From positions 1 to 36,124 of the IMG/VR virus record IMGVR_UViG_3300018719_000039: a stretch of 36,124 bases of DNA, one strand, 5' to 3'. The DNA is from a virus. The notes beneath the pieces were generated by a model. It saw nothing but the letters and a program-made list of their open reading frames with translations, had not been told where the DNA came from and did no database searches. This document shows positions 917 through 35,200 of this stretch, piece by piece; the stretch's first letter is position 1, and the number at the start of each line of letters is the position of its first letter. A program made the position numbers and the translations under genes.

Positions 917-3900
917 TTATTCAATGATTGTTACAACCTGCCAAGTGAAAGAGGAACTGTTGCCAACAGTTTGAATAGCTATTGAAGAGCCATTTACGAC
1001 TATATTGACATTGCAAGAAGCCATGTCTCCAGTTGCAACCTTTGGCACTGTCTCTGTGTTTGTCAGAATGGTTACAGTGCCATTGCTATTCCTTAATGCT
1101 GCTTTTCTTTCTTGATAATAAGTGTCTCCATTTGCATTGACAGCACTTACCTTGACAGTTATCCAAAATATATTCCCATTGTTTATAATTGGAAAAGATT
1201 GTTGAATGGTAGGAGTTGTGCCAGTTGCAAAAGAATTAGAGTAACTCTCCTTTACATAGGTGTGCCAAGGTCCAGCATTAGAGGAGCCAACAATAACATT
1301 GCCATTGGCATCTGCTGCCAGAGGTCTTATGCCAGTACCAGTCAAGCCAGTTGCTTTGAGAGCTGTTGCTTTCACTGTTCCACCGACTTGCATAGATTCT
1401 CCTGTATTGTCAGTTGTATTGAACATGGCAACACCTCCACCATAAGGAAAGAAAGAAACTCCCCCATCGGCTAATTGCATACCAATGGTTGTACTTGCAC
1501 CTCTAAAGTTTAAAGTGCCTTTGAAATCAAAAGTCCCATCAAGTGTTAAATCAGATGTTTGATAACCCAAATAACCCGGCCTTGCTAGAATGAAGTTGCC
1601 ATCATTTGGCTTGCCTGTAATATCAGCCCAAGCCACTGAACCTCCAGAGCCATTGCTGCCACCAACAACACTCACCACTCCAGCCGGGTCAACAGAGAGA
1701 CCACTACCAATTCTGATGCCTCCAAGAGTTGAGTTTGATGCAATAGGCAAAGTGTATGAGCCTCCACCTCCCGAACCTGTTGCATGATCTTGCCAAGCAG
1801 TACCATTGAAATAAGAAAGTGTGTTTTGATCTGTACTGTACCACATGAAGCCATTATCATTAATATTCAGGCTGGCTGCTTGTGGCCTTTCTGAAAGCGT
1901 GCCAACGCCGGTGCCAAATGCTCTCCATTTTTCAGCAGCTAATTGAATAGCTGTTCCAGCTGGGGCTCCACCATTGGGAGTCACCATGAGGATAGTCTTA
2001 CCATTTTCAACAAACTTGTTCAAAATCATAGCTGTTGAAGTGGGCAATTGCAAGGTCATTCCTGTTTCCAGGTTATTTGAAATACCTGACAGCTCAATTC
2101 TGATATTATCAGTCCATTGAGTTAAAGCAATAGTCAAGCCTTCTGGAGTGTAACTACCGCCGCCTCCCTGGGAGACGATCCAGCCCTGTGGGTTTTTACC
2201 GTTATAAAGCTTGTTTATAACAACATCTCCGTTGAGTGCAAGTGAACCTCTGAACTCACTTATATTTTCACCAAAAGTCAAAAGCCTTCCATTCAAGCCA
2301 ATGTCTTTGTAGGAATATAACGGATAGCCCGTTTTTCTGAAGCCATTGTTCCAGGAAGTACCAGGCATTGACCTTTCTGCAAATTTTTGATAGGCCGCTA
2401 AACCTCCATAAGATTCAGTGTAATGGATTTTGCCATAGCCTGCATTCTCCTTTTTAATGATCCAGTTATTGCCATCTTCAGCAAAATAGATCTGCCTTTC
2501 ATTGACTCCATCAAATCCAATACTTCCAATATTAAGTTTGGAGGCTCCAGTGCCTAAATAGTAACCTCCTCCAATCATTCCATTTTCAAACATGCCTCCA
2601 ATGATTGTAGTGAGGTCAGTGAAGATATTTGGCATTTGTCCCTCATTATCACTGATATCAATTTGGCTTTCACCATAACAGCCAACATAAACAGATTTAG
2701 CATTTGGATCAGTAGTAGTATAATGCCCGGCATAGTTGCCATGACCCATGCAGAACTCAACATAAATGCCTAAAAAGGAATTGTCTTGAATACCCCATTC
2801 ACCATTTAAACGAAGGTCAATGCTTGAAATCTTTATGGAGTTGGCATCTCCACCAACAACACGAATACCACTCCTTGCATTGTAACCAACCTCTCCACCT
2901 AATACTTGAGCAAAGGAAGCATTGCCTCCAAACTCAAAAGAGATAGCTGTTGAGGTACTTGTGCCGATTGGAACGTACTCATCAAATTTTCCGTTCTTGC
3001 TGCCATCATTTGTATAAAACAAATCCCAAGTTCCTGTATAGGTCTCGATTCCTGCATCAAGAGAAGCATTGTGAATCAAAATATTCATCACGCCTCCACT
3101 ATAGCCTCCCAAATTGCCAGCAATCCAGATATTGTGATTGCTGGAAAGCCTTGCATACATTTCATAACCATTGTAAAGAGTGGCATTGGTAGTAATGTTG
3201 AAATTTCTTCCAGAAAGACCGATGTCTCCATAAATCTCAATTCCATGTCCATTATTGCGATTAGCACCAACGTTGTGCAATCTGGCTGGAGCTCTCAAAG
3301 CCCATCCATGTCCATTGCCTTGAGGAGAAAATGTGTTGCTTGCACCAAATTGCTTGACGTTGTATATGTCCATTTCTGAAAACACAACAAAGCCTTTTGT
3401 ATTGTTGTAGAACTCTACTCTCCCTTTTGGGTTACCAACCAAAGAAAACTTAGCCCCTCTCAATACAATTGGCTTTGCAAAATAATAAGTACCCTCCTGA
3501 GTCATGTGTATTGCAAGGCCAACACCTGCCCCTATTGCTTTTTGCATATTAAGGAACGGTGTGTCATTGTTGTGAGTCCTTCCATCTTTGTCAGCATATA
3601 CTCCATACCATGCAGCATTGATAATACCATCTTGAATAACTCGTTTAAAGTATTCACTTCCATACTTTACATGCAAAATGCCATCAATGTATTTCGATTC
3701 ATTGGATGAAGTGATAGTTGAGCCGTCTAACCATTTTGAAACCTTCTGATAGGTCACAGGTTCAGCTGTCGCAGCATCCAGTATATTATAGAGTATGTCA
3801 CCTTTTCGTTTGGCGGTAGATAGATTAGTGGTATAGACAGGGGGTGCATCGGGGCCGCTTGAAGCTATTATACCCTTAAAAGACCTTGTACCATTTACAT

Positions 3901-4315
3901 ATTGATACAGACTGTCGTTGGAAATTTGTACACTATCTACTTTGTTGCCGCCAGTTCCATTACCAACGCTGTCTTTGAAAGCAAAAGACCTTACTCCATT
4001 TTTTACACTGTACACAGAATCATTGCTTCTTATTATACCATCTAACTTGGTATTGATTCTATTGCTAAGTGGCGTAGTATCAGTTGCGCCTCCATTAACT
4101 TGCTGCTTTTGAATAAAATCCTTTACAGCCTTTGTAGAAGGTACTTCATTGTGGCCACCACTTAAAGTAGTGTCGGTAGTAACATTTTTGATCCATTTAC
4201 CACTTAGCCAAATGCTATCCCTAACTGTCACCTTTGCCGCATTCACATTTTGCGTTTGTGCCTGAGAAAGTAATGTGCTGGCAGAAAGCACCAGCAATCC
4301 GATCCATTTTTTCAT
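917..4315 (-). CDS. Large tail fibre/spike with beta-helix region and Sec-type signal peptide
   Basis: This 1132-residue protein is the probable receptor-binding fibre or spike. The N-terminus MKKWIGLLVLSASTLLSQA is a textbook Sec signal peptide ending in an AxA-like site, which is odd for a virion protein. A PSTKAVKDFI segment near residues 58-68 is common in phage fibres. Residues about 230-650 are rich in short Gly/Asn/Ile turns and resemble a right-handed parallel beta-helix, sometimes a polysaccharide depolymerase fold, but I cannot point to catalytic residues. Gly/Ser-rich linkers follow, then an LGGIRIGSGLSVDPAG motif typical of fibre repeats, then a C-terminal domain of unknown role. 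It sits 10 bases after the short fibre gene and before the methylase terminator. A secreted adhesin is the alternative, but the gene context argues for a tail protein. Confidence 0.75.
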   Translation of the reverse strand: MKKWIGLLVLSASTLLSQAQTQNVNAAKVTVRDSIWLSGKWIKNVTTDTTLSGGHNEVPSTKAVKDFIQKQQVNGGATDTTPLSNRINTKLDGIIRSNDSVYSVKNGVRSFAFKDSVGNGTGGNKVDSVQISNDSLYQYVNGTRSFKGIIASSGPDAPPVYTTNLSTAKRKGDILYNILDAATAEPVTYQKVSKWLDGSTITSSNESKYIDGILHVKYGSEYFKRVIQDGIINAAWYGVYADKDGRTHNNDTPFLNMQKAIGAGVGLAIHMTQEGTYYFAKPIVLRGAKFSLVGNPKGRVEFYNNTKGFVVFSEMDIYNVKQFGASNTFSPQGNGHGWALRAPARLHNVGANRNNGHGIEIYGDIGLSGRNFNITTNATLYNGYEMYARLSSNHNIWIAGNLGGYSGGVMNILIHNASLDAGIETYTGTWDLFYTNDGSKNGKFDEYVPIGTSTSTAISFEFGGNASFAQVLGGEVGYNARSGIRVVGGDANSIKISSIDLRLNGEWGIQDNSFLGIYVEFCMGHGNYAGHYTTTDPNAKSVYVGCYGESQIDISDNEGQMPNIFTDLTTIIGGMFENGMIGGGYYLGTGASKLNIGSIGFDGVNERQIYFAEDGNNWIIKKENAGYGKIHYTESYGGLAAYQKFAERSMPGTSWNNGFRKTGYPLYSYKDIGLNGRLLTFGENISEFRGSLALNGDVVINKLYNGKNPQGWIVSQGGGGSYTPEGLTIALTQWTDNIRIELSGISNNLETGMTLQLPTSTAMILNKFVENGKTILMVTPNGGAPAGTAIQLAAEKWRAFGTGVGTLSERPQAASLNINDNGFMWYSTDQNTLSYFNGTAWQDHATGSGGGGSYTLPIASNSTLGGIRIGSGLSVDPAGVVSVVGGSNGSGGSVAWADITGKPNDGNFILARPGYLGYQTSDLTLDGTFDFKGTLNFRGASTTIGMQLADGGVSFFPYGGGVAMFNTTDNTGESMQVGGTVKATALKATGLTGTGIRPLAADANGNVIVGSSNAGPWHTYVKESYSNSFATGTTPTIQQSFPIINNGNIFWITVKVSAVNANGDTYYQERKAALRNSNGTVTILTNTETVPKVATGDMASCNVNIVVNGSSIAIQTVGNSSSFTWQVVTIIE

Positions 4316-17022: not shown

Positions 17023-18075
17023 TTATTTTGGTTCGCTACCGAAGTACTCTTTATACTTTAATTTGTATTGCTCTGCGCTCAAGGCTTTGAGCTTTTCAAA
17101 TTTGCCTTGCATGTACAGTTCACGTCCGCTCAGCTTTACCAGTTCTTGTAATTCTGCACTTGCTGAATCACCGCCACCAGACAAACGGTTTTCTACACTC
17201 TCATAAGCCTTCATACCATCAATCAAAGCTTTGGTAGTTTCATAGTCAGCTTTTGCCAGCTTGATATAATTTTCACGATCACCGGCAGCCAATTTTTTGC
17301 CATTGATTGCACCATCAACTAAATCAGTGACTTGCTTTTCAGCAGCAGCAGCCTTAAGTGTCTGGTTTTCTGTAGTGAGCGTAGAAACATCACCTTTCAG
17401 CTTTGTTACTTCTGTATCCAGGACAGCAAGCTTGGCACTGTCAGCCATTACCGCAGTCAATTTTGCAGTGATTTCGGCATCAGTAGCCGTTTCAGAAAGG
17501 CCAAGTTTTACGGCCATTAACTTTTTATCCATAGTTGTTGATTGTGGAATTAAGGAAGAGAGAAAAGAAATCACTTCTTCATTTTCATTGTCAGCGTTCA
17601 GTGCTACTTTTTTACCGGCGCTGTTGCGAATAGCTAAAGCATTCTTGCAATTGGGTATATCTACAATTGATGCTTCGAACAATCCCCATTTTGTAATGGT
17701 GGGTCCGATTTGTCCAGGAAGCATTAAAGCTTCTTCATCTGTAGCAGCTATTGGATCAATCCAAACAGAAGCGGCATTGAGATAGCCTTTCTCTACTTTC
17801 TTTTGGATTTTTTGTGCAAAGTCATCATCATCATCAAATTCAGGTTTCGCAAGGAGCTTGTTATTCTCAACCCGGATATCATACCATCTACCAATTGGTA
17901 GCACAACACCTTCTTCTAATGGTTTTGAATAATTGCTTTCAGCGCGTGCATGCATCATTAACATGACAGGGTTCTTCTGGAAAGCTTCAAGTTGGGCACC
18001 AGACATTAAAGCCCGGAAGCCGTACATAACGACGCTTTCATCCAGAAGAACAAAGTCAATGTTAAGTTTTGCCAT
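17023..18075 (-). CDS. Prohead protease fused to scaffold (Mu gpI/Z-like)
   Basis: A 350-residue two-part head maturation protein. The N-terminal part (to about residue 165) matches the caudovirus prohead protease pattern: VVMYGFRALMSGAQLEAF, NPVMLMMHARAE (with the catalytic His of such proteases), PIGRWYDIRVENNKLLAKPEF, and TKWGLFEASIVDIPNCKNA. The C-terminal part (from TTMDKKLMAVKLGLSETATD) is a long Lys/Glu/Ala-rich helix with coiled coil and a basic end, as in scaffolds. Mu makes its scaffold Z from an in-frame internal start in the same way, and an ATG at 17532 (Met of MDKKLMAV) could do so here. I use the ATG at 18075; a TTG at 18120 adds 15 residues without homologous look. Confidence 0.8.
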   Translation of the reverse strand: MAKLNIDFVLLDESVVMYGFRALMSGAQLEAFQKNPVMLMMHARAESNYSKPLEEGVVLPIGRWYDIRVENNKLLAKPEFDDDDDFAQKIQKKVEKGYLNAASVWIDPIAATDEEALMLPGQIGPTITKWGLFEASIVDIPNCKNALAIRNSAGKKVALNADNENEEVISFLSSLIPQSTTMDKKLMAVKLGLSETATDAEITAKLTAVMADSAKLAVLDTEVTKLKGDVSTLTTENQTLKAAAAEKQVTDLVDGAINGKKLAAGDRENYIKLAKADYETTKALIDGMKAYESVENRLSGGGDSASAELQELVKLSGRELYMQGKFEKLKALSAEQYKLKYKEYFGSEPK

Positions 18076-18127
18076 GAGCCGGTAGTTGTGGTTGCAATGA
18101 ATGAGGATGTAAAGTTGCAATCCGGTT

Positions 18128-20812: not shown

Positions 20813-22132
20813 ATGACAAATGTCAAAAGAGGCACTCTAGAAAACAATCCTGAAAAAGGCATCGTTGTTCAAAATATTTCTATCCGTCCTGTCAACCGTC
20901 AAAGCCAAGACATTGATAAATGGCGCAATGCTATCAGAGCAGCTGAAGCTATAAATGGCACACGGGTTCCACTTTATGATTTATACAATGAGATTCTTTT
21001 AGATGGAGTATTGGAGAATGTTGTCAAAAAACGGGTACTCGGTGTTACCAAAACGAAATTGAAGTTTGTCAACAGTAACGGTGAGGAAGTGCCAGAAATG
21101 ACCAAACTGCTAAAGAAAAAACAGTTCCGAAAGCTTCGGAAGGAAATTCAATTGCAGAAAACATGGGGAATCTCAGTAGTTGAATTGATGAACGATGAAA
21201 AAGGCTTCCGGGTGTATTCTGTACCTCGAAAGCATATACGTCCTAAAGAAGGGCGCATTACCTATGAACAACATGGCGTTGATGGTATTGACTACCGACA
21301 GCCACCAGCAGATAAATTTATCCTGGAAGTAGGGGAATGGGATGACCTTGGCTTATTATTAAAAGCTGCGCCTTATGTAATTTATAAGCGCGGTGGGTTC
21401 GGAGACTGGGCGCAATTTGCTGAAGTTTTTGGTATGCCTTTCCGGGAAGCTCGTTATGATGGATTTAATGATGTAGTCCGCAAACAGCTAGAGATGGCTC
21501 TTGATCAAGCTGGCAGCGCTGCTTATGCTATTCTTCCAAAAGAAGCTGATTTCACCCTTCACCCAACTCCCAATACCCAGGGCAGCGGAGAATTATACAA
21601 TAACCTACGCAGGGCTTGTAATGAGGAACTTTCCATTCTATTCCTGGGACAAACTGAAACCACAACCAAAACAGCCGGTAAGCTTGGCGGTAATGATGAT
21701 ACCCATGAGCAGACAGAAGATGATATCAATGAAGATGATAAGGCAGATGAATTGGCCATCTTTAATGAACAAGTACTACCTATCCTTGCTAACCTAGGTT
21801 TTCCTGTACAAAATGGTGAGTTTGTACATGAGAAACAGGAAAAAGAAGTGCCGGTTAAAGAGAAGATCGATAATGTGATCAAACTGAAGAAAGATTTTGG
21901 TTTGCCTGTTGATGATGACTATGTATATGAAATGAGTGGCGTTCCTAAGCCCTCCAATTATGATCAGCTGAAAAAGGAACAACTGCAACAACAACAGGAA
22001 CCTACTCCAGCTGATAAAAAGAAAAAGAGATCTTCTAATGACCCAGGTGAATCGACAGAGGAAAAATTGGCATGGCTGGACCGGTTCCGTTTAAAGCTTT
22101 CCGATTTTTTCGACCAAGCCCCCAGAAGCTGA
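20813..22132 (+). CDS. Portal protein (Mu gp29-like, DUF935)
   Basis: A 439-residue portal that should form the dodecameric channel at the head vertex. Evidence: KRGGFGDWAQFAEVFGMPFR (about residues 193-212), the family's most conserved segment, an N-terminal domain with RVPLYDLYNEILLDGVLENVVKKRV, and a helical region with LYNNLRRACNEELSILFLGQT. The acidic C-terminal third with Gln-rich linkers and a Lys-rich end (DKKKKRSSN) is typical of portal tails. The MuF gene starts inside its 3' end, overlapping by 61 bases in another frame. Assignment is firm from motif and neighbours. Confidence 0.85.
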   Translation: MTNVKRGTLENNPEKGIVVQNISIRPVNRQSQDIDKWRNAIRAAEAINGTRVPLYDLYNEILLDGVLENVVKKRVLGVTKTKLKFVNSNGEEVPEMTKLLKKKQFRKLRKEIQLQKTWGISVVELMNDEKGFRVYSVPRKHIRPKEGRITYEQHGVDGIDYRQPPADKFILEVGEWDDLGLLLKAAPYVIYKRGGFGDWAQFAEVFGMPFREARYDGFNDVVRKQLEMALDQAGSAAYAILPKEADFTLHPTPNTQGSGELYNNLRRACNEELSILFLGQTETTTKTAGKLGGNDDTHEQTEDDINEDDKADELAIFNEQVLPILANLGFPVQNGEFVHEKQEKEVPVKEKIDNVIKLKKDFGLPVDDDYVYEMSGVPKPSNYDQLKKEQLQQQQEPTPADKKKKRSSNDPGESTEEKLAWLDRFRLKLSDFFDQAPRS

Positions 22133-23448
22133 TAGCAGAAATAAGGGGGCTGCAAGGAGTTTCATTTATTGATACCCAAAACCAGTATAGGTTATTAGGC
22201 TGTGAGTGTGGCCATGATCACTCTAGCGGCTACAAGCTTTCTGCAGGTGATGACCTGGCAAGTGAACTGGTTAGGATAGTAGAAGAAATTTGGGAGCGCA
22301 AAGGCATGCCAAAGCGGATCAGCAAAAAACTGATAGCTTATTATGGTAAGCACCTTTTAAGTGGTGTTGAAAAGGGTTATGGCCAAAAGTTGAGTGAGAT
22401 CGATTATGACACCCCTGATGGTAACATGCTGGAACACCTGGCAAAAAATGTGTATCACTTCTCTGCTGCCAAAACCTACACCCAGCTTCAACAGCTCACC
22501 CAGGCTCTGATAGGGGACGATGGAAAGTTGCGCAATTATAATCAGTTCAAAAAGGCTGCCTTTGACATTAATGACGCCCATGTAAACCAATGGCTAAAAG
22601 CTGAATATGAACTAGCCGTTGGAGGCGCTCAGATGGCATCCAAGTGGATAGATATTACTGGCAATCCGGCAACTACAATTCTGGAATTTGATGTGGTGAT
22701 GGATAGTAAAACCAGCGACATCTGTCGTCCACTTCATGGCATCCGCAGGCTGGTTAGTGATCCTATATTCAAAAAGTATTATCCGCCAAATCATTTTTGG
22801 TGCCGCACTACCATCAGACAACACACCGGGGGCAGCGTAACACCTGATAGCCAGATTGAGCTACCAGAAATACATGAAATGTTTCAGGTTAATCTGGCAG
22901 AAAGAAAAATCATATTTCCTCCTGGTCATTCCTATTGGGTGGGTACACCATCAGCGGTATTGAAAGAAGCCTTGGACCTGATGCCAAATAATAGCTGGCA
23001 CCTGGTGGAAAATAAGACCATCCGCATACATGCTAAAGTTGATACAACAGCTCCAGACTTTGAAAAGGTAATGGAGGTAGCTAGGGATAAAGCAAAAAAT
23101 GGTTCATCTGTTGACTTACTTCCGACATTAAACCATGAAAATGATCCTTTGTATAAAGAATTGTTCAAAGGAGCTAAGCCAGGGAAATGCCCGGATTTAA
23201 AAATTGACAATGAATTTGTTGAGGTAAAGGCACCGAAGAAAAACACAATCAATACCCTGAAGCATAGTATTGATAATGCCAGTAAGCAGGCTGATCATGT
23301 TATTATCCTAAATCCGATACGCAATGATTATAAGGAAATGAAACGCATTGCAAAGGGCCGGTTCAAGGATCATGAAAATTTGAAAATAATAGAGTTCAAA
23401 CAGCAAGGAGCTTATTACCGGTTTACAAGGGAGGGGCAGCTAAAATAA
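22072..23448 (+). CDS. MuF-type head protein with C-terminal PD-ExK/CdiA-CT-like nuclease domain
   Basis: A 458-residue protein. Residues about 80-260 are the MuF (gp30, head morphogenesis) domain, with LKAEYELAVGGAQMAS, DSKTSDICRPLHG and the closing PPNHFWCRTTIRQ, whose Cys residues and PxHxxCR pattern are usual. Residues about 316-458 are a separate domain starting with TIRIHAKVD. It carries a VARDKAKNGSSVDLLPTLNH helix-strand, then GKCPDLKI (P374-D375), FVEVKAPKK (E384, K386) and SKQADHVIILN. PD with ExK is a restriction-nuclease-like core, and the order matches CdiA C-terminal tRNase-type toxins. MuF proteins are packaged in heads and are known carriers of polymorphic toxins. No adjacent immunity gene is evident. 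The start at 22072 overlaps the portal gene by 61 bases. Confidence 0.8.
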   Translation: MAGPVPFKAFRFFRPSPQKLIAEIRGLQGVSFIDTQNQYRLLGCECGHDHSSGYKLSAGDDLASELVRIVEEIWERKGMPKRISKKLIAYYGKHLLSGVEKGYGQKLSEIDYDTPDGNMLEHLAKNVYHFSAAKTYTQLQQLTQALIGDDGKLRNYNQFKKAAFDINDAHVNQWLKAEYELAVGGAQMASKWIDITGNPATTILEFDVVMDSKTSDICRPLHGIRRLVSDPIFKKYYPPNHFWCRTTIRQHTGGSVTPDSQIELPEIHEMFQVNLAERKIIFPPGHSYWVGTPSAVLKEALDLMPNNSWHLVENKTIRIHAKVDTTAPDFEKVMEVARDKAKNGSSVDLLPTLNHENDPLYKELFKGAKPGKCPDLKIDNEFVEVKAPKKNTINTLKHSIDNASKQADHVIILNPIRNDYKEMKRIAKGRFKDHENLKIIEFKQQGAYYRFTREGQLK

Positions 23449-23450
23449 AG

Positions 23451-23470
23451 AGGCAGCCCGAAGGCTGCCT
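23451..23470. promoter_or_regulatory. Hairpin between MuF-nuclease and gpG genes
   Basis: Arms AGGCAGCC (23451-23458) and GGCTGCCT (23463-23470) with loop CGAA, placed in the 72-base gap after the MuF stop. No U-run follows, so it is probably an mRNA-stability or partial termination element. The same arm sequence is found at 15812-15835. Confidence 0.5.
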
Positions 23471-23520
23471 GGCACAATGCCCCGTAGGACTCTGTACCAC
23501 AAATATACATTTTTTAATCA

Positions 23521-24078
23521 ATGGCGCAACGGTTCAACATATCAGACCAGGAAAAACACTTCAGACAGGTTTTGCTGTATGCACCTGGTATGTTGGGTAA
23601 TATGGCCGTTAATTTTTTCCTGGATCGCTTCCGGTACCAGAACTGGCTGGGATCAACAACTGAGGCTTGGCGTCAGCGCCGCACAAATAGCCCAAGAAAC
23701 AGGGGAAGAAGTATTCTGGTACAATCGGGCCGCCTTCGTCGAAGCATTCGAATAACGCGCATTTCTGGCCTTACTGTGACCATTGGCAGCGATGTGCCGT
23801 ATGCAAAGGCACATAATGAAGGCTTCAGGGGAACAGTATCGGTAAAAGCACATAGCCGTAATAAGTACGGTAAAGAAAGGGTGAAGTCTGGCAAATTCAC
23901 AAAATCGGGCAAGGAACGAATGAAAACGATCCAGACCATTACTGCCACTGGCCAGGTTAAAGCACATACCCGCAAAGTGAATATTTTACGTCGTCAATTT
24001 ATGGGAAATAGCCCGGTATTGGAACAGCAAATGAACCGGCGATTGCTGGCTGAATTATTAAAAGGCTTACGAACTTAA
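23521..24078 (+). CDS. Virion morphogenesis protein (Mu gpG-like)
   Basis: A 185-residue basic protein. It shows the gpG-family features: RGRSILVQSGRLRRSIRIT (about residues 61-79), then TVTIGSDVPYAKAHNEGF, and an end rich in Arg/Lys (KVNILRRQFMGNSPVLEQQ). The sequence GRLRRSI...VPYAxxHNxG is highly conserved in phage virion morphogenesis proteins, which act in head-tail joining or tail completion. It follows the MuF gene and precedes the gp37-like gene as in Mu (30-G-...). A long overlapping frame starting at 23477 is a shadow. Confidence 0.8.
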   Translation: MAQRFNISDQEKHFRQVLLYAPGMLGNMAVNFFLDRFRYQNWLGSTTEAWRQRRTNSPRNRGRSILVQSGRLRRSIRITRISGLTVTIGSDVPYAKAHNEGFRGTVSVKAHSRNKYGKERVKSGKFTKSGKERMKTIQTITATGQVKAHTRKVNILRRQFMGNSPVLEQQMNRRLLAELLKGLRT

Positions 24079-24089
24079 ATGTTACTTAT

Positions 24090-24608
24090 ATGGAACTTAA
24101 AGCACACGAATCTTTATTATTTATGGCAATACTGGAACGCCTTTTAGACCAGGTGCCTGAGATCAGGTATATAGAGCAGGATCTGGGCCAACTGGAGAAC
24201 TACGAAATGCGCCCAGCTGTATCATGGCCATGCACCCTTATTGATATTGACGATCTTGATTTTTCAGAGACTGGAGGAAAGCTTGTTCAGTTGGCTCAAG
24301 GCTTTGTTCAAATTCGCTTGGGGCTGGTTAAATACACAGACTCAAATAACCTGGTACCAGCTAATATCCGGGCCAATTCACTACAATACCTGGAATTGGA
24401 AAACAAAGTTTATAAAGCGCTTCATGGGTGGGGACCCGAAGGTTTTAATAAAATGCTGAGGCGAAAAAGCGTGACAGAAAAAAGAGATGATGATATCCGG
24501 GTTAAGATTTTGAGATTTTCTATCGGCTATAAAGATGAAGGCGCTGTACCTGCAAGACTAAAGGTATCGAGACCAGGTGTAACTATTGGAACAGGGTTGA
24601 CCAGTTGA
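24090..24608 (+). CDS. Tail terminator/completion protein (Mu gp37-like)
   Basis: A 172-residue protein. It begins with helical MAILERLLDQVPEIRYIEQDLGQL and has PAVSWPCTLIDIDDLDF (about residues 48-64), a beta-rich middle (QLAQGFVQIRLGLVK), a helix (LQYLELENKVYKAL) and then KRDDDIRVKILRFSIGYKD. This alternating pattern, and the place after gpG, match gp37-type tail terminator proteins, which cap the tail tube and bind the head. It is the last gene of the rightward block and its end overlaps the convergent gene below by 26 bases. Confidence 0.55.
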   Translation: MELKAHESLLFMAILERLLDQVPEIRYIEQDLGQLENYEMRPAVSWPCTLIDIDDLDFSETGGKLVQLAQGFVQIRLGLVKYTDSNNLVPANIRANSLQYLELENKVYKALHGWGPEGFNKMLRRKSVTEKRDDDIRVKILRFSIGYKDEGAVPARLKVSRPGVTIGTGLTS

Positions 24609-25035: not shown

Positions 25036-25602
25036 TTAATGTTTCCAGTTCAAACCATCAACGTTGAACTCAATTACCCGATTTCCCGAATTAAAGAATT
25101 CTGCTTCAACCATAAGCTTTTTTGCTGTTTTCAACTTTGGTAATACCTTATTTAATGAGCCGAGGAAAATGACATTACTGCTCGCATCAGTTGTACCAGT
25201 ATAAGTTACATTGAAAGGTTTTTCATCATCGAATTTCAGACGTACTGTACGATCCCCTGAAATGCTCCCCATAAATTGACCCTTATCAACTATTATAAAA
25301 ACTTCATTCTTTTTGTCTCTATTCCTTACAAATAAATTGAAAGTAGAACCACCATTGTAAGGAAAATCAAATTCTATTTCATTTGTTGAAGTTGTTTGTG
25401 CAAAGTAGGAAGTGGAGTTATCCATTTTGTCTACTTCCTCATTATATCTCCATGCTTCAGGTGCTTTCTCTGGTTCTGAAACTAAAGACTCAGTTTTGTC
25501 AACAGATTTATCAGGAGTACTTGCATTAGCTTGATCTGAACCACATGATGTAACTGTAAAAAGAATTGCACTGGAAATAAAACTCAAAAAGATACTTTTC
25601 AT
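25036..25602 (-). CDS. Lipoprotein moron candidate
   Basis: A 188-residue secreted lipoprotein. The N-terminus MKSIFLSFISSAILFTVTSC carries a hydrophobic core and a lipobox V-T-S-C with the Cys at residue 20. A low-complexity Glu/Ser linker is followed by a globular part with WRYNEEVDKMDNSTSYFA, FDFPYNGGSTFNLFVRN, KGQFMGSI and a closing IEFNVDGLNW. This architecture resembles Bacteroidota lipoproteins of unknown function; no enzymatic motif is seen. It stands alone between early and late regions with its own likely promoter (25637-25668) and a strong terminator, the pattern of a moron expressed in the lysogen. A superinfection-exclusion or fitness role is inference. Confidence 0.7.
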   Translation of the reverse strand: MKSIFLSFISSAILFTVTSCGSDQANASTPDKSVDKTESLVSEPEKAPEAWRYNEEVDKMDNSTSYFAQTTSTNEIEFDFPYNGGSTFNLFVRNRDKKNEVFIIVDKGQFMGSISGDRTVRLKFDDEKPFNVTYTGTTDASSNVIFLGSLNKVLPKLKTAKKLMVEAEFFNSGNRVIEFNVDGLNWKH

Positions 25603-26479: not shown

Positions 26480-26905
26480 TTATTTCCATTCATTTTCCCA
26501 GTAATGATCCCGAAGGTATTTTTCGGGATCAGCTTTTTTACGCCAGCCTGTTCCTTTCAAAAACTTATTATAAGCATCAACACCTATATATGCCTCCACT
26601 TGACTTGCCTTGGATAGTTTAGACCAAAGCGGCTCACATCTCTTCTTATTTACCTTGTAATCATATTTATTCCAAAACATTTCAAACGTGACTTCATATG
26701 AAGTTTCGACTATTGTAACTGAACCAGGTGTAAAAGCAGTTTCCAGCCTTTCGATTTGCCCAGGAACTTTTTCTTTGAAAATGTTTACAATAGCAGCAGG
26801 CATATTTGTAGCTATAAGGTCTAGTTTAACAAGGCGTCCATCCCCATCATATAGAATATCCGCTTCACCTGTAAAAGCAGATGATGTTATTAAAAAGCGT
26901 CTCAT
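26480..26905 (-). CDS. AFTG-domain protein with replisome-organiser-like C-terminus
   Basis: A 141-residue protein. The first 45 residues (FLITSSAFTGEADILYDGDG) are a diverged copy of the protein encoded at 27387-27608. Residues 75-141 instead have FEMFWNKYDYKVNKKRCEPLW, then KLSKASQVEAYIGVDAYNKF and DPEKYLRDHYWENEW. The FW..Y..K..K...W..L and PEKYL..H.WE..W pattern is the C-terminal segment of many phage replication/organiser proteins that recruit helicase or loader. Function is inferred. The start overlaps the DUF1643 gene by four bases (26902-26905). See findings for the paralogy. Confidence 0.55.
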   Translation of the reverse strand: MRRFLITSSAFTGEADILYDGDGRLVKLDLIATNMPAAIVNIFKEKVPGQIERLETAFTPGSVTIVETSYEVTFEMFWNKYDYKVNKKRCEPLWSKLSKASQVEAYIGVDAYNKFLKGTGWRKKADPEKYLRDHYWENEWK

Positions 26906-27390
26906 AGAATATTATAATTTTTGAATTCTATCAGTTTTGTACATGACTTACAGAATAAAGGATGCTGTGGAGAGCCATCTTTTAGAACATTTATCGCCAA
27001 AGGGTTTCCGATCATGGGAAATAGCTGCTTTGCTCTTTGCCGGGCCTGTTTAAAAGCACCCCAGGCACATACTATTCCCCATACCTGTCCTTGCACTAAA
27101 TTGATATATCTGTCATTGTCACCAATTGGATCAGGATGCGTTGATAACAAATCTGGGTCTTTCGATACTAAAGCAAACAGATTAATCATATAAATACCAC
27201 CAAAGCTGTTGTGTCTTGCAATAGCTATGACTCTTTTGATTGTATTGTCTGGTTCTGTTTCATTAGCTGTAGAAGGATTAATACCCATGAATGCAATATT
27301 CGGCTTAGACTCATCCCAAATACGCCACAGGGCATAACGATACTTTCTGCACTCACTAAATGAAGCACCGCTTTTTTCAAACATTTTCAT
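26902..27390 (-). CDS. DUF1643-family protein
   Basis: A 162-residue protein with the clear family pattern: CRKYRYALWRIWDESKPNIAF, MGINPSTANETEPDNTIKR (about residues 35-53), MINLFALVSKDPDLL, and the end SPQHPLF. DUF1643 proteins occur in many phages and bacteria, and their biochemical role is unknown to me. The conserved NPSTA and NLFA segments suggest a folded alpha/beta domain, but no catalytic residue can be named. It overlaps both neighbours by four bases, within a run of coupled small accessory genes. Confidence 0.75.
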   Translation of the reverse strand: MKMFEKSGASFSECRKYRYALWRIWDESKPNIAFMGINPSTANETEPDNTIKRVIAIARHNSFGGIYMINLFALVSKDPDLLSTHPDPIGDNDRYINLVQGQVWGIVCAWGAFKQARQRAKQLFPMIGNPLAINVLKDGSPQHPLFCKSCTKLIEFKNYNIL

Positions 27391-31912: not shown

Positions 31913-31939
31913 TAAGCGGATTTAAGCGTTTTCTAAGCG
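31913..31939. repeat. Three TAAGCG repeats at about 10-11 bp spacing
   Basis: TAAGCG occurs at 31913-31918, 31923-31928 and 31934-31939, on one face of the helix, spanning the stop of MuB and the start of the next gene. Spacing by full turns suggests protein binding but this is unproven. Confidence 0.35.
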
Positions 31940-32811
31940 GCAATTGGTTTACTCTTCTTAACCCTGGCTTTGTGTACCAGTCTTTCCACCCGGCGCAGGT
32001 CAATATCTTCCTCCTTTCCAAAATCATTAATAATCTCATTGACAGACATGGGATCTTCAATCCCATTAGCCTGGCAGATTTCTTTGATCTCACCTTTATC
32101 GGCACCATGAAGCTGAACGAACCGGCGACCTATACGAGAGAGAATTTCAGCATAGCCTTTTTTATTGAGTTTGTAACCGCGCATGACACGCTTTGAAAGG
32201 AACTCCGTGGCCATGATCACAATGCCGCACTTTCCTTTGAGCATATTATATAAGGTGATAAAGAAGTATAGTGCCTGGTCATTAAGCTTATCAGCTTCAT
32301 CCAGGATGATCAGTGGCCGGTCCTGCTTCAGAAGGGTTTCTACAATGACATCCATCATCTCACCGATATTATAGCCAGTGTTCTCTTTACCCATCTTTTC
32401 CAGCAGCTTATTCAGGAACATTTTACGGTTCCAGAACTCAGCACATGTAACATGGTACACGTTCTGTTTATGTTTGGCAAACCATTCAGCTGTTGCACTT
32501 TTACCACTTCCTGCAGCACCTACAATGGCGAACACGTTACCATAATCCTTTGCATCTGAGAAGTAAGTCACCAGGGTTTTGAAGTCTAGGGTTTCTACAA
32601 GCGACCAGTTGCTATTGCCGCCCCAATTCAGTTGTTTACCGACATTGCGCCACATATCATCGCTAATGGCATCCCAGCGCTGTTTGCGCATCTGAATAAT
32701 AATGGCCTCGCTGACATTTTTCAGCCTGGCAGCGGCTTGAGCCTGGGACGGGAATTGTCCAATGAACTGCTCTAGCAGTAGAACGATTTCTTTTTTGTTG
32801 GCTTCTGTCAT
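31933..32811 (-). CDS. MuB-like AAA ATPase, target-selection protein
   Basis: A 292-residue protein. An N-terminal HTH-like region (SQAQAAARLKNVSEAIIIQM, about residues 22-41) is followed by Walker A GAAGSGKS (98-105), Walker B LIILDEAD (167-174), and a C-terminal LSRIGRRFVQLHGADKGE segment with sensor-like residues. This arrangement matches MuB, which binds target DNA, polymerises with ATP and activates MuA. The gene follows MuA directly with a 130-base gap. In Mu, B has 312 residues. A C-terminal KSKPIAA tail is short. Confidence 0.85.
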   Translation of the reverse strand: MTEANKKEIVLLLEQFIGQFPSQAQAAARLKNVSEAIIIQMRKQRWDAISDDMWRNVGKQLNWGGNSNWSLVETLDFKTLVTYFSDAKDYGNVFAIVGAAGSGKSATAEWFAKHKQNVYHVTCAEFWNRKMFLNKLLEKMGKENTGYNIGEMMDVIVETLLKQDRPLIILDEADKLNDQALYFFITLYNMLKGKCGIVIMATEFLSKRVMRGYKLNKKGYAEILSRIGRRFVQLHGADKGEIKEICQANGIEDPMSVNEIINDFGKEEDIDLRRVERLVHKARVKKSKPIAA

Positions 32812-32941: not shown

Positions 32942-34891
32942 TTACATTAGATCAAGAGGGTTGAATGCCCTACGATCCTCAATGAATTGTCCGCTTTGAT
33001 AATCCAATTCTGCCTTTTGCTTCAACTCTTTGATCATTACACCAGATATCAGCAGGCTTTCCGCGTCAACACCATTCTCAACCAATACCTTCTCACGTTT
33101 TGCAGCTGCTGCATTGACATAATCTACCTGCTTGGCTTTTTCTGCCAGTAAAGCATTGATATAACTGCGGTCTCCTGGCTGGTAATCCTTCAGTGCTTTT
33201 GGAGCCAGTTGAGTAGTAGTGGCGGTAAAACGAAGGCTGCCGCCATCAGTGATCAAAACACGGCTCATGTCGTAGGGATCATACATTACATTCACCCGCT
33301 TTCCGATATTCAGAAGACTCAGCGCCGGTGGCACATCAAAGAAGTACTGCTGGTTATTGATCTGCGGTGCAACACCTTTATTGCTGATACTTACCTGGTG
33401 CTTATGCTGAACTCCGAAAATCATCAGGAACTGCTCATCGGTTATTTGCTTTTTTTCCGTATCAGCCAGTTTAACCCAGGCTTCAAGCCATTCCTGTTGT
33501 TTGCTTTTGCCATTGGTTTGTGGCAAATGGCGCAGGCGATGAAAGAAGGTCTCAATTTGATCTACAGCATCATGCTGTACAGTGGGATAGGATTTTTTAT
33601 TACTATTCAATATTTCTGTATTAACTCCCCGGTTCTTTGCTGTGATATTATTGCCGGTATAGTTATTAGCACCCATTTTAAGGCAACGCTTCCAGTGTGG
33701 AGTACGGAAGAATTGTTCTATGAAACCACGCTTTTTACTCCCAACTGGGCTTTCTATATAATGGCCCATGCTTTCATAAAATGGCTTTAGCTTTCCAATG
33801 GCCCACTTATCTGTTTTGGTTTCATGAGGTAGGTACCAGGCACCTGTAAGGGAGCGAATATGATACATGGCATTTGCATAGGCAGCTTTTACAAGTTCTA
33901 TCGAAAGGTCTTGCGAATAGGCATAGCCTAATACATAATCATTGAAAGAATCTACTACTACAATGGCTTTGTACTTGTGATAATACTTACCGCTGGGGCT
34001 TTCATCTTCAATATCAATAAAGAAGAGGTCTAAATGGTTATCATCGCTTTCAACCAGGAAAAGAGGGGCCGAGGGACGTTTACCTGGTACCTGCCTGCGG
34101 AAAGTCTGATCAAAGGCGGCCCAACCTTCACGCTTGGCTACAATCACATTGTTATTTTTCCTGCGCCATACCCCCACAGTAGCCGGTGTTATAAATTTGT
34201 AACCCTTCTCAATGGCTGCTTGGTTGTAGACCATCGCTATATATACATCATCATATTGATTAGGGTGACAAAGCAGTTCGATCAATAAACTTTCAGAAAA
34301 ATCATCGTTCACCTTTGCAGCCAGTTTGTTGCCAAATCTCCAGTCAATCAAACAAGGATAACCCTGCTCTTTAAATTCTTTCATCCTGGCAATTAACCTG
34401 CGGTTAGCTTCAGGAAGATCTATTTTATCAGATATGATCAATTCACGGATATTAGTCCAGAATGCTTCCATTGAAAGTCCCAGTTCTTTTTTGATGAATC
34501 CTTTCTTATCATCATTGAGCTTATTGAGCATATTCAACCAGCTTGCTGTTGTGGTATACTTTTCTACATGCTGCTTTGAAAGGCGCTTATTATCTCCATA
34601 GGTGTAACTCAGATAGAACTTATGCGCTTCAAAATCTTTTACAACTAGTTTTCGAATAGGGTCTTTAGCAATGAAATCATATGGGTTACCAAAACGGGCT
34701 TGTAGCTTTTCTTTATGAGCATCAACCAGTGTTTCATATTTCACCATCGGCCTGCGTTTGTCCGAAGGATTTGTAATCATCTGCCAACGATCCCCATTTC
34801 TTAAGTTGGCCTTTTTAACAGTATCCTCTTTCCAGCCCGCTTCTATAAAATCAGGAAACTCGATATAAAGGCAATTGTCAATTATTCTCAT
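32942..34891 (-). CDS. MuA-like DDE transposase
   Basis: A 649-residue enzyme that should bind phage ends, cut, and join them to target DNA during replicative transposition. The N-terminal 250 residues hold DNA-binding domains. The RNase H-like catalytic core begins near residue 276 with PLFLVESDDNHLDLFF (candidate first Asp D283/284), has KTDKWAIGKL (D361) and GFIEQFFRT (E392) as the remaining catalytic acids. IVVVDSFNDYVLGYAY in between is the typical central beta strand. The C-terminal part from about 520 should contact MuB and ClpX. Size is close to Mu A (663 residues). The start overlaps the Ner-like gene by 14 bases. Confidence 0.9.
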   Translation of the reverse strand: MRIIDNCLYIEFPDFIEAGWKEDTVKKANLRNGDRWQMITNPSDKRRPMVKYETLVDAHKEKLQARFGNPYDFIAKDPIRKLVVKDFEAHKFYLSYTYGDNKRLSKQHVEKYTTTASWLNMLNKLNDDKKGFIKKELGLSMEAFWTNIRELIISDKIDLPEANRRLIARMKEFKEQGYPCLIDWRFGNKLAAKVNDDFSESLLIELLCHPNQYDDVYIAMVYNQAAIEKGYKFITPATVGVWRRKNNNVIVAKREGWAAFDQTFRRQVPGKRPSAPLFLVESDDNHLDLFFIDIEDESPSGKYYHKYKAIVVVDSFNDYVLGYAYSQDLSIELVKAAYANAMYHIRSLTGAWYLPHETKTDKWAIGKLKPFYESMGHYIESPVGSKKRGFIEQFFRTPHWKRCLKMGANNYTGNNITAKNRGVNTEILNSNKKSYPTVQHDAVDQIETFFHRLRHLPQTNGKSKQQEWLEAWVKLADTEKKQITDEQFLMIFGVQHKHQVSISNKGVAPQINNQQYFFDVPPALSLLNIGKRVNVMYDPYDMSRVLITDGGSLRFTATTTQLAPKALKDYQPGDRSYINALLAEKAKQVDYVNAAAAKREKVLVENGVDAESLLISGVMIKELKQKAELDYQSGQFIEDRRAFNPLDLM

Positions 34892-35129
34892 TTGGCTTTG
34901 GATTAAAAGGGACTAATTTTTCAACTGCTGCTAAAAGGTGGTTTTGCCTGGCTGTTTGGTAAGCAGCTTGTTCCAATTCAAGTAATTCCATATAGGTGGC
35001 AATAATTTCATCGTTGTCATGATCTCCGCTAAGGACACGTCTAACATGCCTTTCTGAAACCCCCACTATTTCTGCCGTTTTCTTTACCCTGGCAGCTCTC
35101 TCTATATCTCTTTTGTAGGTTTTTTCCAT
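34878..35129 (-). CDS. Ner-like early HTH regulator
   Basis: An 83-residue protein: KRDIERAARVKKTAEIVGVS, then ERHVRRVLSGDHDNDEIIATY. The AARVKKTAEIVGVSERHVRRVL core is a plain helix-turn-helix. Size and position (first early gene, opposite the repressor) match Mu Ner, which damps early and repressor transcription. The C-terminal LEQAAYQTARQNHLLAAVEK is helical. It begins about 19 bases from the first operator and overlaps the transposase start by 14 bases. A Mu Ner homologue in sequence is not evident, so this is an analogue by context. Confidence 0.7.
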   Translation of the reverse strand: MEKTYKRDIERAARVKKTAEIVGVSERHVRRVLSGDHDNDEIIATYMELLELEQAAYQTARQNHLLAAVEKLVPFNPKPNENN

Positions 35130-35169: not shown

Positions 35170-35200
35170 CAAATATAATCTCAATAAAATGACATTACAA
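35170..35200 (-). promoter_or_regulatory. Early promoter, Bacteroidota type
   Basis: Minus strand: TTG (35200-35198), a 20-base spacer and TATATTTG (35177-35170), an exact match to TAnnTTTG. Start of transcription is expected near 35163-35165, inside operator 1, giving a leader of about 35 bases before the Ner-like gene. The -33 element lies in the spacer of operator 2, so both palindromes cover the promoter. I found no comparable promoter for the repressor. Confidence 0.75.

Follow-up and report, generated by a model that had tools for sequence, protein, structure and literature searches.

The stretch of viral DNA analyzed here (IMG/VR record IMGVR_UViG_3300018719_000039, positions 1 to 36,124; 36,124 nucleotides in all, referred to below as the window) comes from a Mu-like virus of Bacteroidota bacteria. 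Its MuF head protein carries an exchangeable, nuclease-like C-terminal domain, termed the tip, and the short gap behind the MuF gene contains, on the opposite strand, a gene for a small RNA. Comparison with related loci gave strong evidence that the nuclease tip and the opposite-strand RNA form one cassette. In related viruses the RNA swaps with the enzyme, and it is therefore a candidate RNA antidote. We put the probability that the cassette consists of a toxin and an RNA antidote, with the RNA as the immunity determinant of the tip nuclease, at roughly 0.6; that the RNA would neutralize the enzyme, and in what manner, is suggested by its position and its co-inheritance with the tip.

The MuF open reading frame (ORF; 22072–23448, plus strand, 458 amino acids) has its start codon within the portal gene, and the gpG-like gene begins exactly 72 bases after its end. 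Residues 1–304 (22072–22983, plus strand) comprise the MuF (SPP1 gp7/Mu gpF-type) head domain (Pfam PF04233, PHROG 19194), with the Phage_Mu_F match spanning residues 175–248 and relatives being 31–49% identical. The tip, residues 316–458 (23017–23445, plus strand), was assigned by profile, AlphaFold2 model and fold match. CdiA_C (PF18451) matches residues 373–425, the tip alone scoring 34.7 bits against a curated cut-off of 26.6, and 29 of 40 relatives match PF18451 as well, at E 0.01. An earlier note on this DNA had proposed a MuF head protein with a CdiA-CT/PD-(D/E)xK nuclease at about residues 316–458, and this assignment was upheld, as were the motifs that it had named in the translation: P374-D375 of the PD-(D/E)xK signature (23191–23196, plus strand), E384-V385-K386 (ExK; 23221–23229, plus strand) and S404-K-Q-A-D (23281–23295, plus strand), in which Q406 is nearly invariant. 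Across the 40 relatives the signature residues are kept far above chance. Position 375 is D or E in 38 and position 384 is E or D in all 40; at position 386, 25 relatives have K and 12 have E, and position 406, which ranks among the most conserved residues, is Q in 36. The lysine of ExK is replaced by glutamate in the whole clade L005–L022 and in the closest tip relative, L062, with D375, E384 and Q406 retained; as judged by sequence, an ExE form of the active site thus exists within the tip family.

For prediction of the fold, residues 307–458 were modeled with AlphaFold2 from an alignment of 28 relatives, giving a mean predicted local distance difference test (pLDDT) score of 95.5. Foldseek, the check suggested in the earlier note, returned a single solved structure at E ≤ 0.001, 4g6v_A (E 5.8e-5, probability 1.00, template modeling scores 0.61/0.69), which is the CdiA-CT of Burkholderia pseudomallei 1026b (PDB 4G6V; PMC9086364). 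The alignment of the model with this chain by VIA-align had a Z of 11.9 over 120 of 132 residues, with a root mean square deviation of 2.7 Å, the next chain reaching 6.6. Lower-ranked matches included a splicing endonuclease, the influenza PA endonuclease and Holliday-junction resolvases, all with PD-(D/E)xK folds. The model predicts a PD-(D/E)xK nuclease core fold for the tip, closest to the 1026b CdiA-CT tRNase. That enzyme is a Mg-dependent tRNase with D214 and D223 among its active-site residues (PMC9086364); D375 and E384 of the tip share their spacing of nine, which is suggestive only, as the residues were not superposed. The fold match was obtained only from a model built on a deeper alignment: a first model, from 7 sequences, reached a pLDDT of 72.6, and Foldseek matched it to no structure at E ≤ 0.001. 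Comparison of the tip sequence with solved structures yielded nothing, the best E being 0.021, to an unrelated helicase domain, and the tip alone had no match in named phages and plasmids. The tip is under purifying selection, with ratios of nonsynonymous to synonymous substitution rates (dN/dS) of 0.03–0.22 in the two pairs for which dS could be estimated. By analogy with its family, the tip would be an RNase that is packaged in the head and injected.

The minus strand of the 72-base gap reads TTG-N19-TATATTTG, followed by two stem-loops and a T-rich tail. TAnnTTTG is the −7 box of Bacteroidota promoters, and TATATTTG at 23500–23507 (minus strand) matches it; the TTG, a −33 element at 23527–23529 (minus strand), lies within the gpG start region and is found at comparable spacing in relatives. 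Promoter, fold and terminator signals together mark a small RNA gene of about 55–60 nt at 23440–23497 (minus strand, ends approximate). Stem-loop 1 (23471–23498, minus strand; GGUACAG.GUCC-UACG-GGGC.UUGUGCC), with its C(UACG)G loop, was defined by fold and covariation, and stem-loop 2 (23451–23470, minus strand; GGCAGCC-UUCG-GGCUGCC) by its fold as an intrinsic terminator. The T-rich tail (23450–23441, minus strand) follows stem-loop 2 and extends into the complement of the MuF stop codon. The minus-strand fold of the gap has an energy of −33.2 kcal/mol (z −5.4). The 36-kb window has three TAnnTTTG boxes on the minus strand and six on the plus strand; only at the gap is a box accompanied by a terminator. 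One further box, at 35177 (minus strand), lies directly upstream of the first early gene (34878–35129, minus strand), at the head of the early operon, and is likely an early promoter of the same type as the RNA promoter. The hairpin that the earlier note had placed between MuF and gpG is real; what it terminates is a minus-strand RNA, and it does not belong to the MuF/gpG mRNA alone. Its reading as a terminator of MuF mRNA was rejected, since the hairpin lacks a T-run behind it on the plus strand and a terminator in the sense direction was present in 2 of 43 loci. Searches of the window and 11 related loci with Rfam 15 gave no family at gathering score, the best sub-threshold matches having E values of 4.5 and 8.4.

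MuF relatives were collected from viral and bacterial contigs and sorted by what comes after the MuF domain. Tip classes were single-linkage clusters with few errors (L122, L224 and L228 were first sorted wrongly as tip-less). Among 100 different tips, 49 belong to the window family, 26 to the PBECR2 family and 10 to the PBECR3/LPD3 family, with small groups that include Gln_amidase and ADP-ribosyltransferase tips. The nearest MuF relative (L137, 49% identical) has no tip, nor does L002 (44% identical), in which gpG starts 9 bases downstream; in MuF backbones that are 97–99% identical, unrelated domains replace the tip. The swapping of the C-terminal domain between related phages, as the earlier note had foreseen, was thus observed, and a variable toxin tip on a conserved MuF part is a known kind of system, the MuF polymorphic toxin. 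On the MuF tree, at least 17 changes of the label for opposite-strand RNA signals, which tracks the tips, fall on well-supported branches.

The RNA element was scored across these loci by a strict rule, requiring TAnnTTTG and a terminator on the strand opposite MuF, and by a second rule, requiring a terminator at the MuF stop. Under the strict rule it was detected in 32 of 43 non-redundant CdiA_C-class loci (the box in 41), against 0.03 expected from shuffles; it was absent from the sense strand (0/43), from a control region (0/43) and from tip-less MuF loci (0/42). The second rule gave 34/43 CdiA_C-class loci against 0/42 tip-less loci, and a looser rule 46/51 nuclease-like tips, 5/40 tip-less loci and 0/9 other tips. 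About half of 40 loci have a TTG 18–20 bases upstream of the box. In 40 loci the RNA strand folds better than its complement, with means of −28.7 and −23.6 kcal/mol (p 6.5e-7). In stem-loop 1 of the Bacteroidales group, compensatory changes affect three pairs and 100% of cells are paired, and in that of the UACG group they affect five of seven pairs (17 cells); in both RNA groups these changes exceed all shuffles and slides. With the rule fixed, held-out loci gave the element behind four of seven CdiA_C-type tips (L215, L221, L224 and L229) and behind none of seven tip-less MuF genes; a further held-out locus, L216, combines the box with a strong hairpin whose loop is longer. A group model of the RNA run against 395 genomes matched one, the genome that also holds a tip. 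The RNA signals are absent from a CdiA_C domain borne on an RHS protein (L026) and from two further PF18451 genes (L025 and L028). In a Porphyromonas gingivalis phage (L189), positions 3664–3920 behind a portal–MuF–tip fusion contain a TATATTTG box on the opposite strand, with a strong terminator about 225 nt away; this may be a longer RNA of the same kind.

Several comparisons tie the RNA to the tip. Identity between L178 and L180 is 97.5% across the 6584 bp that lead up to the end of MuF and 97.4% across the 1494 bp that start at the RNA promoter; between these flanks the tip (35% identity) and the entire RNA body have been replaced, with the promoter kept. L132 and L135 share a backbone that is 98.6% identical, and a PBECR3/LPD3-type tip with an opposite-strand RNA in L132 corresponds to a Gln_amidase tip in L135 with, in matching place and orientation, a 70-amino acid ORF. 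On a Bacteroidia chromosome (L016, 6923–7520), a stand-alone CdiA_C-type tip of 175 amino acids has a UACG-loop RNA in the usual opposite-strand position, and no phage gene (MuF or gpG) is found among the ORFs listed around it; this tip is flanked by genes for a transporter and a 2-oxoacid oxidoreductase. When the scan was started from the RNA, as a DNA pattern, 26 viral contigs were retrieved, of which 23 have a tip on the opposite strand 51–90 nt away. RNA similarity also follows tip similarity with MuF similarity partialled out (partial Mantel r 0.28, p 0.0005). Taken together, there is strong support for assigning the RNA to the tip and not to the head operon.

A protein partner was sought in the same loci. 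The earlier note had reported that no immunity gene is adjacent; this is correct for protein genes, as the 72-bp gap of the window has no ORF of 40 amino acids or more, and incomplete in that the minus-strand small RNA gene had been overlooked. In 22 of 25 CdiA_C-class loci, where the gaps are 133 bp or less, and in nearly all PBECR2 loci, there is no ORF of at least 50 amino acids between MuF and gpG. Behind Gln_amidase and ADP-ribosyltransferase tips, a small protein gene occupies the opposite-strand slot after MuF. Three such genes run opposite to MuF: a 78-amino acid ORF behind a Gln_amidase tip (L130, 4883–5115) with a TAnnTTTG box, the 70-amino acid ORF of L135 (4059–4256) with its own TATATTTG box, and a 60-amino acid ORF behind an ADP-ribosyltransferase tip (L131), also with a TAnnTTTG box. 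The L130 and L135 products are weakly similar (p 0.004), and none of the three has a Pfam match. They are candidate immunity proteins that searches confined to the same strand overlook.

The antidote proposal was reached because deamidase and ADP-ribosyltransferase tips are followed by a small protein gene in this slot, because tip and RNA are inherited jointly, because the promoter is host-type, and so likely active in a lysogen, while MuF is a late gene, and because a nuclease held by an RNA makes sense. In outline, a host-type promoter and a terminator of its own would define a small structured RNA that is produced steadily in the lysogen, with MuF produced only late. The RNA may hold the nuclease inactive by binding it, in the manner of type III RNA antitoxins; in an infected cell that lacks the RNA, nothing would keep the nuclease from cutting the RNA of the host or of a rival. 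For the broader proposition that Bacteroidota phages pair head-borne nuclease toxins with opposite-strand RNA immunity, and that other tips use small proteins in that slot, we consider the chances to be even.

A number of observations weigh against an RNA antidote. The detector rules were devised only after the pattern had been noticed, and the held-out set was small. Between 9 and 11 of the 43 CdiA_C-class loci fail the strict rule; tips of the PBECR2 type have the element in just 8 of 24 cases, often with longer spacing, and some supposedly tip-less MuF genes were mis-sorted (L122). The RNA sequence is scarcely conserved between subgroups and cannot be aligned across them; a model built on one group recovers other groups weakly (L009, E 0.055) or not at all, which precludes a single covariance model for all the RNAs. 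Tips with damaged active-site motifs (L003 and L031) retain the RNA. RNA and MuF similarity remain correlated with the tip partialled out (r 0.17), a residue that linkage would give. Finally, three RNA copies lie away from CdiA_C tips (L191 at 3341, L196 at 2150 and L209 at 4634), where they follow a gene resembling that of the terminase small subunit or, in phages with a PBECR3-like tip, gpG; they may represent orphan immunity or point to another job for the RNA.

Of the other explanations, the one that survives best, which we consider unlikely, is that the RNA is a cis-antisense silencer of MuF mRNA (type I-like), curbing leaky synthesis of the nuclease in the lysogen and not touching the protein. 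The RNA is by position fully complementary to the MuF–gpG junction of the late mRNA, after the stop codon, and its swapping with the tip would follow from this position alone. The conserved structure of stem-loop 1, with its compensatory changes, and the better fold on the RNA strand speak against this reading, and the UACG loop, a stability loop that is poor at initiating pairing, is ill suited to begin an antisense interaction. Copies away from any CdiA_C tip appear to act in trans, and the ADP-ribosyltransferase and Gln-deamidase tips hold a protein ORF in the slot. Direct binding is favored over antisense on account of the conserved fold, the loop of the stable UNCG type and the copies away from CdiA_C tips.

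Somewhat more doubtful is the possibility that the tip is a head-packaged “polyvalent” effector of early infection that needs no antidote, with the RNA a phage regulator of, for example, late-gene expression. Delivery of MuF–effector fusions at infection is proposed in the accessible text of Iyer et al. 2017 (PMC5512222), and the frequent lack of a clear RNA behind PBECR2-type tips and the three RNA copies elsewhere would fit. A regulator of late genes would not readily explain why the element is found in 0/42 tip-less MuF loci despite the shared late operon, why tip and RNA body are replaced jointly, or why the stand-alone chromosomal tip retains its RNA. An immunity protein encoded elsewhere in the phage is highly improbable. 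Polymorphic toxins normally have one, as the 89% figure of Jamet et al. (PMC5576092; see below) reflects, and the earlier note had offered as candidates the gene at 24583 and the lipoprotein at 25036; the former was rejected because its relatives occur in tip-less phages (L002, L137, L059, L064 and L030) and with PBECR2 tips, and the latter because it has no relative in any compared locus. That residues 316–458 are a conserved structural part of the head protein, as their presence in many members of the phage group might suggest, has a negligible probability given the tip-less relatives L137 and L002 and the unrelated replacements in near-identical backbones.

The genes around MuF are those of a Mu-like phage. 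A Pfam scan of the window identified portal, gp36-like and gpG-like genes in its surroundings, the Mu-type portal protein at 20813–22132 (plus strand; PF06074, E 1e-65) and the gpG-like virion morphogenesis protein (Phage_tail_S) at 23521–24078 (plus strand; PF05069, PHROG 26). Protease I (Mu-like_Pro) was placed by profile match at 17026–18120, a MuB-like AAA ATPase at 31933–32811 (AAA_22, 1e-16) and a Mu transposase A-like protein at 32942–34891 (minus strand), its match slightly below the curated cut-off. The pointers to a possible temperate lifestyle are these Mu-like transposase and ATPase genes. The early region also contains a gene for a DUF1643 protein (26902–27390, minus strand). Among the relatives, the MuF protein of L124 has an intein-like insertion in the MuF domain immediately ahead of a conserved “CRC” motif. 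In L005, L017 and L021 a reverse transcriptase gene lies downstream of MuF, with an Asn/Ala-rich repetitive stretch ahead, an arrangement that resembles a diversity-generating retroelement. Tip-less MuF genes in L076, L081, L088, L098, L103, L104, L123 and L125 are followed by a separate gene of about 100–117 amino acids before gpG.

Known type III RNA antitoxins are tandem repeats located upstream of the toxin on the same strand. The proposed likeness to type III toxin–antitoxin systems (ToxIN) lies in the combination of a nuclease protein and a structured RNA partner; unlike in those systems, the RNA of the window is single, downstream and on the opposite strand, with its own promoter. With the CdiA-CT of 1026b (PDB 4G6V, PMC9086364), the tip shares its fold over 120 of 132 residues and an acidic/ExK-type active site, whereas that enzyme is 15% identical, is delivered by a two-partner secretion exoprotein and has a protein immunity partner, CdiI. 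The tip is borne on a phage MuF head protein and has no adjacent CdiI-type ORF, which sets it apart from contact-dependent inhibition systems. The MuF toxins of Jamet et al. 2017 (PMC5576092) have in common with the window a MuF gene after the portal gene, a variable C-terminal toxin, most commonly a nuclease, and a Mu-like phage, in the case of the window a putatively temperate one. Those toxin tips are found mainly in Firmicutes, with a small downstream ORF behind 89%; the window phage belongs to Bacteroidota viruses, and an opposite-strand RNA, not a downstream ORF, occupies the slot. The Bxa and other Bacteroidales MuF toxins (Alexei et al. 2024, PMC11699363) likewise reside in Bacteroidota prophages with exchangeable tips, including ADP-ribosyltransferase and glutamine deaminase; their immunity is by protein (Bsi, BAH), and the sections of that paper available to us describe no RNA partner. 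The polyvalent MuF–PBECR proteins (PMC5512222) are also MuF–nuclease fusions proposed to be injected; they carry a BECR RNase where the tip is of the CdiA_C-type PD-(D/E)xK kind, and the accessible text describes no opposite-strand RNA. A search of the open-access literature found no RNA immunity of polymorphic toxins, no MuF with an RNA antitoxin and no small RNA of Bacteroidota Mu-like prophages.

Polymorphic toxins are recognized by a toxin domain together with a small immunity ORF, and a toxin that lacks such an ORF is classed as orphan or harmless. Should the RNA be the antidote, this would be a polymorphic toxin system with RNA-based immunity, in which toxin and RNA are exchanged as one cassette, and many apparent orphan toxins would be complete systems invisible to current annotation. 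The RNAs would then constitute a family of natural inhibitors for PD-(D/E)xK nucleases, and it would become possible to test directly whether head-packaged MuF tips act on the infected cell.

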